Source: an uncultured Bacilli bacterium (GTDB lineage: Bacteria; Bacillota_I; Bacilli_A; RF39; UBA660). Taken from it: a stretch of 40,585 nt of DNA. Made by a program: the position numbers and the translations under genes. Shown in pieces: positions 14,634 to 16,635 of the stretch (positions are counted from its first letter, which is position 1; each line of letters starts with the position of its first letter). Where the stretch lies: assembly GCA_944358815.1 (NCBI GenBank), contig CALVRX010000043.1, positions 1-40,585 on the forward strand. The letters are read 5' to 3'. A model generated the notes under the pieces. The model ran no database searches. It saw only the letters and a program-made list of their open reading frames with translations, and had not been told where the DNA came from.

Positions 14634-14662
14634 AAAAAATGGTATTCTCATTTGAATACCAT
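14634..14662 (-). terminator. Terminator facing left, for the XRE transcript
   Basis: Nine perfect pairs atggtattc / gaatacc at with a 6-nt loop. On the minus strand it runs into six T (14639-14634). The nearest minus-strand gene is the XRE regulator, so its mRNA would have a 3' UTR of about 130 nt. Confidence 0.65.
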
Positions 14663-14715
14663 AATTTTACATAATTCTGTCAAATTTTTTCCATAAAAGA
14701 TTGTTATTATGATTA

Positions 14716-14812
14716 CAGAGTTGGGAAAACTCTGAAAGGTAGTGATAGATGATTTATTAAATTTATTTTTCTAAACTATACTCACTAGCAGTTTTATAAC
14801 TGCTCTTTTTTT
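14716..14812 (+). ncRNA. Candidate small RNA antisense to the XRE mRNA
   Basis: An extended -10 box TGTTATTAT (14703-14710) precedes a perfect hairpin cagagtt/aactctg (14716-14734), then a ribosome site (aaagg) with a three-codon ORF (ATG at 14749, stop TAA at 14758-14760). It ends in a textbook terminator agcagtt/aactgct (14787-14804) with seven T. The unit would be about 95 nt. It lies opposite the predicted 3' UTR and the last codons of the XRE gene. No -35 box is evident and no known RNA family was recognised. Confidence 0.4.
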
Positions 14813-15021
14813 CTGTTATAAGGGGTTTTGATGTTAGTTATTCCTAATATGTAATCGACACTAGTATTATAAAAATAAGCAAGTTTGATTAATATACCGA
14901 TAGGAATGTTGTTGTCACCAGTTTCATAGTGAGAATATCCTCTTTGGCTAATACCTAATTTTTTGGCAATGTCTACTTGTTTTAAATCTTGATCTTCCCT
15001 TAAATCCTTTAATCTATTCAT
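14794..15021 (-). CDS. XRE-family HTH repressor, 75 residues
   Basis: A small DNA-binding protein made almost only of a helix-turn-helix: LKDLREDQDLKQVDIAKKLG followed by ISQRGYSHYETGDNNIPIGILIKLAYFYNTSVDYILG, the standard Cro/CI-type fold with a short tail. ATGs exist upstream at 15042 and 15036, but only the one at 15021 has a proper ggaggc site, 7 nt away, and the 15036 ATG lies at that site. Two TAGAC/GTCTA-type operators lie just upstream, between this gene and the divergent DUF6273-type gene, so autorepression and control of that gene are likely. Such regulators occur in phage switches and in cellular surface-gene control. No phage genes are nearby. Confidence 0.88.
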   Translation of the reverse strand: MNRLKDLREDQDLKQVDIAKKLGISQRGYSHYETGDNNIPIGILIKLAYFYNTSVDYILGITNIKTPYNRKKEQL

Positions 15022-15040
15022 TTTTTTAGCCTCCATCGTC

Positions 15041-15046
15041 ATTGTA
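15041..15046 (-). promoter_or_regulatory. Likely -10 box of the XRE gene
   Basis: TACAAT on the minus strand, with no good -35 box. Operator O1 fills the adjoining spacer region. Confidence 0.35.
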
Positions 15047-15049
15047 CAT

Positions 15050-15091
15050 TAGACGAAATAAGTCTATTGACTTTTAGCCTGAATTAGTCTA
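15050..15091. promoter_or_regulatory. Paired operators O1 and O2 of the XRE regulator
   Basis: O1 is TAGAC-N7-GTCTA (15050-15066). O2 is TAGCC-N7-GTCTA (15075-15091), with one change in its left half. Arm length and spacing are the same, and the centres are 25 nt apart. O1 occupies the spacer of the leftward promoter and touches the rightward -35 box. O2 covers the rightward spacer and the first bases of the rightward -10 box. This is the layout of a Cro/CI-like control region. Confidence 0.6.
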
Positions 15092-15095
15092 TACT
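15067..15095 (+). promoter_or_regulatory. Promoter of the DUF6273-type surface gene
   Basis: TTGACT (15067-15072), 17-nt spacer, TATACT (15090-15095). Transcription would begin near 15102, giving a 5' leader of about 185 nt. The leader holds a 9-bp hairpin (ttaaaattt/aaattttaa, 15116-15139). Confidence 0.75.
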
Positions 15096-15194
15096 TTTAT
15101 ATAGTAGAGGACATATTAAAATTTTTTAGTAAATTTTAACACGTGTAAAAAGAAAGAAATGTCGAAGAATTTTATTTGTCTTTAAAGGAGGTAT

Positions 15195-15218
15195 ATGTTC
15201 AAAGGTAATGTGAAATAG
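15195..15218 (+). CDS. Possible 7-codon leader ORF (MFKGNVK)
   Basis: The sequence aaaggagg, one of the strongest ribosome sites in the window, lies 4 nt before an ATG that opens only seven codons before TAG. It sits in the leader 69 nt upstream of the DUF6273-type gene. It could couple or attenuate expression of that gene. It could also be chance or a remnant of a lost gene. Confidence 0.3.
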   Translation: MFKGNVK

Positions 15219-15286
15219 AATTTTTGAAAGATATTTTTGTCTTTTATTTTGAGGCAAAAGTTATGATTTGAAAGGAGAAAATATTT

Positions 15287-16183
15287 ATGTTAAAAAATAT
15301 ATTTAAAAATAGAATATTTCTATGTGTTTTAACAGCTTTAGTTTTTGGAACAATAGGGGTATCGGCAGCAACATATTTTCCAAGTAATCAAGTAACGTAC
15401 GATAATAAAACTAGTGGTTTAAAGTCGACTGATGTGCAAGGTGCATTAGATGAACTTTATAATACATGTGCAGGGCAAATAAGTAGTAATCAAATTATAA
15501 AAGATAATAATTTGACCAAAGATGAATATGAAAATAGATATTTTTTTAAAGGTTCAAATCCCAATAATTATTTATTATTTAATGGTGCAATGTGGCGAAT
15601 AATATCTGTTGAAAGTGATGGTACTTTAAAAATTATTAAAAATGAAGCTATAGGAAATATGGCATGGAATTCTGCTGGTTCTAATGATTGGAATAATTCT
15701 TCGTTAAAAACATATTTAAATAGCACTTATTATAATAATTTTTATTCTGCGTCAAAAGAGCAAGTAGTTTCTCATAATTTTAGTATTGGATCTGTTAGTT
15801 ACAATAATAAAGATTTAGCTTCACAAATTAGTAGTGAAAATAGTAAAACTTGGAATGGAAAAGTAGCTTTAACGACGGTGAGTGAATATATAAGAACCAA
15901 TTCAAATACTAGTCAATGTGGTACATTAAGTTCATATAATATGTATTATAGTACGTGTAAGAATACTACTTGGATGTATGGAACAACCGAATATTGGTGG
16001 ACTTTGTCAGCTCGTAGTAGTAATAATAATTTGGTATATATGTTATATAGTAATTTATATACTATTAATACGATGGATGTAAGTATTTCAGATAATGCTT
16101 GGGTACGTCCTGTGGTATATTTGAGTGCTTCTTTGACTTATTCAGGTCATGGGACAATATTAGATCCGTATAGAATAAATTAA
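15287..16183 (+). CDS. Secreted DUF6273-type surface protein
   Basis: A 298-residue protein with an N-terminal signal or anchor (Lys/Arg then about residues 10-28, FLCVLTALVFGTIGVSAAT). Next comes the block TSGLKSTDVQGALDELYNTC, which I associate with surface proteins of uncultured gut Bacilli. The C-terminal half resembles DUF6273: YLLFNGAMWRIISVESDGTLKII, then a Trp-rich part (WWTLSARSS, NAWVRPVVYLS) ending in GTILDPYRIN. It is probably exported and folded outside the cell. Its function is unknown, but related domains occur in large adhesin-like or carbohydrate-associated proteins. Ribosome site aaaggag, 9 nt before ATG. Expression is probably controlled by the adjacent XRE repressor. Confidence 0.82.
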   Translation: MLKNIFKNRIFLCVLTALVFGTIGVSAATYFPSNQVTYDNKTSGLKSTDVQGALDELYNTCAGQISSNQIIKDNNLTKDEYENRYFFKGSNPNNYLLFNGAMWRIISVESDGTLKIIKNEAIGNMAWNSAGSNDWNNSSLKTYLNSTYYNNFYSASKEQVVSHNFSIGSVSYNNKDLASQISSENSKTWNGKVALTTVSEYIRTNSNTSQCGTLSSYNMYYSTCKNTTWMYGTTEYWWTLSARSSNNNLVYMLYSNLYTINTMDVSISDNAWVRPVVYLSASLTYSGHGTILDPYRIN

Positions 16184-16209
16184 AAAATGTAGTTTTTCTA
16201 CATTTTTTA
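16181..16209. terminator. Shared bidirectional terminator
   Basis: Twelve perfect pairs (taaaaaatgtag / ctacatttttta) around five T. The outermost TAA on each strand is the stop codon of the convergent genes on either side. Confidence 0.9.
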
Positions 16210-16635
16210 ATTTAGAAAATATACACCAAATGAAAGATATGCTGCAAATATTAACCATATTAAGTAAGGAATATTTAATATACCTGATATTTTATTTTCT
16301 TCATAAAATTTTTTTATCATAATTATAACTAATATAATTAATAGAACAATCCATAATGATGAGAATAAATACCATTTAAAAACAAAGAAGAAGATTGACC
16401 ATAAGAGATTGACAAATAATTGTGCGTAATATATAAGTTTATTTTGTTCATTTTGTTTATAAAAACTATAGCCCATTATGATGTATAAAATAGTCCAAAT
16501 GATTGGAAAAGTTATACCTGGAGGAGAAAGCGGCGGTTTATTTAAGTTTTGGTAGTTCATAAATGGATTTATGATTAGACCTACTATACCTCCTAATATG
16601 ACAGGTATTGCAATATTTTTAATTAAATTTTTCAT
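16207..16635 (-). CDS. tspO: TspO/MBR family membrane protein
   Basis: A 142-residue, five-helix membrane protein. Family signatures are visible: NKPPLSPPGITFPIIWTILY between helices 1 and 2, QLFVNLLWSIFFFVF in helix 3, and PYLIWLIFAAYLSFGVYFLN in helix 5. TspO proteins bind tetrapyrroles and other hydrophobic ligands. In bacteria they are linked to oxidative-stress and porphyrin handling, but the molecular activity is disputed. The minus-strand ribosome site ggtgat precedes ATG. It shares a terminator with the convergent DUF6273-type gene. No porphyrin genes are near. Confidence 0.93.
   Translation of the reverse strand: MKNLIKNIAIPVILGGIVGLIINPFMNYQNLNKPPLSPPGITFPIIWTILYIIMGYSFYKQNEQNKLIYYAQLFVNLLWSIFFFVFKWYLFSSLWIVLLIILVIIMIKKFYEENKISGILNIPYLIWLIFAAYLSFGVYFLN

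Follow-up and report, generated by a model that had tools for sequence, protein, structure and literature searches.

The operators of phage lambda are spaced 23-24 bp apart, and the RstR repressors of CTX-type phages occur as alleles that differ in specificity. In Enterococcus faecalis, CylR2 is the repressor of a divergent operon whose product is exported (PMC5454873). DUF6273 has been reported as C-type-lectin-like (PMC10743442), and phage proteins carrying this domain are retroelement (DGR) targets (PMC10743442; PMC11792537), with variable regions at the C-terminus (PMC11792537). A search of the literature on XRE regulators of surface proteins found nothing beyond mention of the terms.

Here we describe an XRE regulator gene and its surroundings in a 40,585-nt window (the whole stretch of DNA analysed), which is a contig of a 1.05-Mb genome (MAG, 63% complete). 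The preliminary description of this DNA had proposed a repressor-like XRE with two cognate operators and overlapping divergent promoters, attached to a surface-protein gene, and this arrangement is supported by both layout and conservation. Judged from sequence, it is probably a self-contained, autoregulated repressor cassette that silences one surface-protein gene.

The regulator, its operators and the divergent promoters

The regulatory part of the cassette comprises the following features (positions in the window).

14794-15021, minus strand: XRE-family single-HTH regulator gene, 75 aa from the ATG at 15021 (MNRLKDLRED...; HTH_3, 4.9e-14)
15041-15046, minus strand (read 15046-15041): predicted -10 element TACAAT of the leftward (XRE) promoter, conserved in relatives
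15050-15066, no strand assigned: operator O1, TAGACGAAATAAGTCTA, 5-N7-5 with fully symmetric arms, predicted from sequence
15067-15072, plus strand: -35 element TTGACT of the rightward promoter, within the O1-O2 linker
15075-15091, no strand assigned: predicted operator O2, TAGCCTGAATTAGTCTA, lying in the rightward promoter's spacer and extending into its -10 element
15090-15095, plus strand: -10 element TATACT of the rightward promoter, a promoter match whose position is conserved in relatives

The longest open reading frame of the XRE gene spans 14794-15042 on the minus strand; the start at 15021 is preferred over that at 15042 because GGAGGC precedes this ATG and relatives begin at the same Met. 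The gene stands alone on its strand and ends at a terminator. Its product is little more than an HTH domain (PF01381, 52.5 bits against a gathering score of 23, covering profile positions 1-55 of 55), which places it in the HTH_3 family, and the closest solved structure is that of the ICEBs1 Xre regulator (7t8i). The match to the RstR family (NCBIfam NF041951) scores 51.3 bits, under the curated cut-off of 80, and the protein is not counted as a member.

O1 and O2 lie between this gene and a secreted DUF6273 gene, 25 bp apart centre to centre with an 8-bp linker. Both had been put forward in the preliminary description with these positions, forms and spacing; they are present as described and exceed shuffled controls. 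The pattern TAGNC-N7-GTCTA gives three strand matches in the 40.6-kb window, which correspond to the two sites O1 and O2, and none elsewhere; shuffled windows contain a mean of 0.12 matches, and none of 100 shuffles reached three. A genome-wide regulon of this XRE was considered and rejected, since the rest of the 1.05-Mb genome has the pattern at just two places, both unrelated, about the level of a reversed-pattern control; further targets may be missed because the MAG is 63% complete.

The rightward promoter (TTGACT-17-TATACT, 15067-15095) matches at 10 of 12 positions and is one of the two best in the region. O2 fills the spacer of this promoter, and the -10 element opens with the final two bases of O2. 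The leftward promoter has O1 in its spacer and a poor -35 element (best 3 of 6, by eye). This predicted map agrees with the earlier placement of O1 in the leftward spacer and of O2 over the rightward spacer and the edge of its -10 element.

Conservation of the layout and specificity of the sites

Orthologous XRE genes in other species of the genus are 82-88% identical over the preferred reading frame and keep both operators, with O1 identical in the orthologous loci of five genomes (G004, G006, G018, G020 and G053). The exact paired-operator pattern is present in 7 of 44 genus genomes, and the reversed control gives no matches. The preliminary description had named a lack of operator conservation beside homologous XRE genes as evidence that would count against it; in relatives the operators are conserved. 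In G002 the orthologous XRE (L055) is broken by stops and O2 and the -35 element are changed too, a drift that would follow if nothing but the regulator maintained the operators.

The same spacing recurs widely. A scan upstream of 58 single-HTH genes of the genus, whose strict score is passed by only 21 of them and which captures groups with 16-bp sites (TRQQYGLYE, TTQQQYSKYE) poorly, yields 21 strong dyad pairs, 20 of them at a spacing of 25; the corresponding shuffles give 4 strong pairs in 290, with scattered spacings. For 91 genes from the GTDB collection, mostly from Clostridia, only 19 pass, and the spacing is 25 in 18 of the 19 strong pairs (shuffles: 7 in 455, spacings again scattered). 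Palindromic pairs were found at none of 11 two-HTH relatives scanned, nor at two-HTH XRE paralogues. The layout common to strong pairs consists of O1, a -35 element TTGAC in the 8-bp linker, and O2 reaching into the -10 element; the window cassette has this layout, with two 17-bp dyads at a spacing of 25 and TTGAC between them. A logo of 68 loci has a nearly invariant outer TA in both operators, variable arms, TTGAC in the linker and a TATAAT that overlaps O2. The linker starts with TTG in 91% and with TTGAC in 67% of 67 loci. The rightward -10 position reads TATAAT in 28, TAAAAT in 14 and TATACT in 6 of the 68 loci, and the leftward -10 position is TAAAAT, TATAAT or TACAAT in 42 of 68 aligned loci. 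The recurrence of one layout with different but matched site sequences in related gut bacteria suggests a portable, self-contained on/off unit.

Variation of the sites follows variation of the protein. Across 67 loci, operator-arm distance correlates with the distance over XRE residues 23-41 (the recognition helix and the next loop) at rho 0.65, compared with 0.21 for the remaining residues (partial correlation for residues 23-41, 0.63), and a sliding window places the peak at about residues 19-42. A rho of 0.65 was reached in none of 2000 permutations (largest permuted value 0.30), figures that are not strict probabilities, the loci being related by descent. The covariation is not circular because the operators were selected by symmetry and by the likeness of both sites, not by protein. 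A paralogue in the window genome with 64% identity (L002) has TAACT-N7-AGTTA operators, also 5-N7-5 and 25 bp apart, together with a third copy. Another locus, L053, is closer to the TAACT group outside residues 24-41 (77-81% identity, compared with 69% to the window XRE) and closer to the window XRE inside them (83%, against 67% for the TAACT group). This locus carries window-type operators, and it thus behaves as a natural helix swap. Since the recognition helix and the following loop change with the operator arms, little cross-talk is likely between paralogous cassettes of one genome. In a pattern search of the 63%-complete genome, operators of the window and L002 types occur essentially nowhere but at their own loci.

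The surface gene, its partners and the cassette edges

The surface gene and the boundaries of the cassette are as follows.

14787-14804, no strand assigned: terminator hairpin of a small plus-strand transcript, overlapping the 3' end of the XRE gene; left cassette edge by empty-site comparison
15102-15286, plus strand: surface-gene 5' leader, unusually long, carrying a 7-codon ORF (MFKGNVK) at 15195-15218 with an SD before it
15287-16183, plus strand: exported surface-protein gene, 298 aa, with an N-terminal signal or anchor, a YFPSNQVTYDN...VQGALDELY module (NTM) and a C-terminal DUF6273
16176-16214, plus strand: terminator hairpin of the surface gene with a 17-bp perfect stem; right cassette edge, before TspO

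The surface protein (15287-16183) is hydrophobic over an N-terminal segment and matches DUF6273 at 1.1e-9. The NTM module (YFPSNQVTYDN...ALDELY) occurs at 30 places in the window genome, several of them adjoining XRE genes. An AlphaFold2 model of the DUF6273 protein has a mean pLDDT of 61 and no PDB match with E <= 0.001, and its best BFVD matches include DUF6273-type phage models; the C-type-lectin reading therefore rests on the papers cited above. The start codon lies 195 nt past O2, compared with at most 114 nt in 23 other measured genus loci. The long leader with its MFKGNVK ORF is possibly a decayed gene start or an attenuator; its folding is unremarkable (z -1.4).

The immediate flanks carry C39-peptidase-domain, DUF6273 and TspO genes. 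In G012, G052 and G054 the small-transcript terminator is followed directly by TspO, and the XRE and surface genes are absent; in the window, terminator and TspO are separated by the XRE gene, the operators and the surface gene, with edges at the terminator T-tracts. G048 has an XRE cassette with another surface gene, and its upstream gene matches that of G052 and G012. The same XRE and operators are found with an NTM-DUF6273 partner in the window, G020, G004 and G053, with another NTM protein in G018, and with GYAAF-type partners carrying other domains in G048 and G051. On these gene orders, the unit of XRE, operators and promoter is joined to different surface genes. Of the 58 partner genes in the genus, 47 encode a protein with an N-terminus for export or membrane anchoring, these including 14 with NTM, 26 with a GYAAF-like motif and one prepilin-like, according to classes assigned by regular expressions and a hydropathy cut-off that file other NTM-kind proteins under TM/SP.

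The terminator at the left edge belongs to an element at 14680-14811 (plus strand) that is conserved at 76-85% identity in at least 12 genus genomes, including its own, and is composed of a direct-repeat-like promoter region, a hairpin, AAAGGATGTGATATATG, TTTTTTCTAAACTATACTCACT and the terminator. It is a candidate for a small RNA or for a transcript with a tiny ORF; Rfam gives no match at the gathering threshold, and the consensus fold is weakly supported. Its 5' part also occurs at three further loci (L245, L246 and L247, about 1501-1620) upstream of a response-regulator gene and an apparent sensor-kinase gene, so the element may be part of a two-component regulon.

Elsewhere in the genus, genes of the same kind are retroelement targets. 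DGR loci in several species (L336, L331, L334, L338, L341 and L342) have template/variable pairs that differ only at template adenines (129 bp with 21 differences in L336), and their targets are NTM-DUF6273 or GYAAF-DUF6273 genes. The window gene has a C-terminal DUF6273 domain, a feature of DGR targets. A search for an active DGR on this gene found no template repeat identical except at adenines in the 63%-complete genome, and around the reverse transcriptase gene at C41 of that genome no local template or TR/VR pair was found. At L315:2002-3448, a reverse transcriptase gene overlaps a surface-module gene and adjoins a two-HTH XRE, with no template repeat detected nearby. A speculative extension, which we think rather unlikely to hold, is that the genus maintains a large repertoire of interchangeable surface-lectin genes, of which some are diversified by retroelements and many have their own mutually orthogonal repressor/operator pair, such that variants would be independently switchable and helix/operator pairs would form a natural specificity code.

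Mode of regulation and comparison with known systems

From layout, conservation, covariation, partner swapping and presence/absence, all read from the sequence, we infer binding, dimer formation, repression and paralogue insulation. XRE would bind O1 and O2, most likely as one dimer per site. Because O2 covers the rightward spacer and the edge of the -10 element and O1 abuts the -35 element, bound repressor would silence the surface gene; because O1 lies in the spacer of the weaker leftward promoter, XRE would also limit its own synthesis. Both promoters share the -35 region, so polymerase is probably unable to use both at once. The sign of regulation is likewise taken from this layout, in which O1, at about -44 of the rightward start, might instead permit activation.

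The best rival to autoregulated local repression is a dual activator and repressor, like R-M controller proteins or lambda CI, in which one bound operator would activate and both filled would repress, so that the surface gene and/or XRE would respond in a pulse or at a threshold. We consider this unlikely. It agrees with the predicted promoters, which place the centre of O1 near -44 of the rightward start and that of O2 near -49 of the leftward start, and with a leftward promoter that combines a conserved -10 with a poor -35 element, as for a promoter needing help; controller proteins are described as a cooperative, concentration-dependent switch that involves both activation and repression (PMC3115060). 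The rightward promoter, however, comes so near to consensus that it should work unaided, O2 lies within it, and no consistent order of O1 and O2 affinity is visible across operator groups. A bistable or phase-like two-state switch of surface-protein expression, as anticipated in the preliminary description, appears highly improbable. Overlapping divergent promoters, two operators and autoregulation can, from layout only, give bistability if binding is cooperative, but the divergent gene encodes an exported protein, not a repressor that opposes XRE, and the usual effect of simple negative autoregulation is less variation. Around the promoter, inverted repeats are short, AT-rich and mostly imperfect, none forming a plausible invertible segment, and no slippage tract was found, the reported 25-bp 'tandem repeat' being the operator pair itself; with no second repressor found either, this proposal is not upheld.

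Descent from a phage or ICE immunity region, with the repressor kept by chance beside a host gene, would fit the ICEBs1 Xre structure, the matches to PHROGs transcription regulators and the sub-threshold RstR match. We hold it to be very unlikely: a search of neighbouring genes recognised none of phage type, relatives on viral contigs are at most 63% identical and have strong pairs spaced mostly at 30 (4) or 37 (2) and once at 25, and dozens of loci combine the layout with exported host proteins. A toxin-antitoxin pair, in which XRE would regulate itself as antitoxins do and the surface gene would play no part, is hardly credible. HipB/PezA-type HTH domains match XRE weakly, but no adjacent toxin gene is recognisable, XRE is alone on its strand before a terminator, and the partner is exported.

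Under autoregulated local repression, one suspected switch becomes a testable, family-wide rule: two operators in a promoter layout with a fixed spacing of 25 bp, and a specificity that changes along with about 19 residues of the 75-aa regulator. The matched natural pairs would offer orthogonal repressors and a data set on how DNA specificity can be read from sequence. Expression control is linked to a type of surface protein that is diversified by retroelements in the same uncultured gut genus, and the choice of which surface lectin such bacteria show becomes directly testable.

Among described systems, the DGR targets (tentaclins, Faecalibacterium phages) share DUF6273 with the window partner gene, but those reported are phage proteins and the window gene has no detected template repeat. 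The R-M controllers C.Esp1396I and C.Csp231I resemble XRE in being small autoregulatory HTH proteins with several operator sites (PMC3758141, PMC3115060); their sites lie in R-M operons, whereas the immediate flanks of XRE lack restriction endonuclease and methyltransferase genes, and the PADLOC control-protein match to XRE is weak only (7e-4), leaving it outside that group. RstR is likewise a small HTH repressor, but XRE falls below the family cut-off and is not phage-borne. The likeness to phage CI/Cro control claimed in the preliminary description stands for the geometry: as in lambda OR, 17-bp dyad operators lie in or beside overlapping divergent promoters, with a weak self-promoter and a strong opposite promoter. 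It does not extend further, since the divergent partner is an exported DUF6273 protein without an HTH and not a Cro-like second repressor, XRE lacks a C-terminal oligomerisation or cleavage domain, and the window has two sites instead of three, at a spacing fixed at 25. CylR2 (PDB 1utx), with 66 aa and a single HTH, belongs to the same fold family (A1 profile match, 4.4e-5). It works with a membrane partner, CylR1, and a peptide signal, whereas the window XRE gene stands alone with a surface-protein partner and, unlike CylR2, has two 17-bp operators 25 bp apart.
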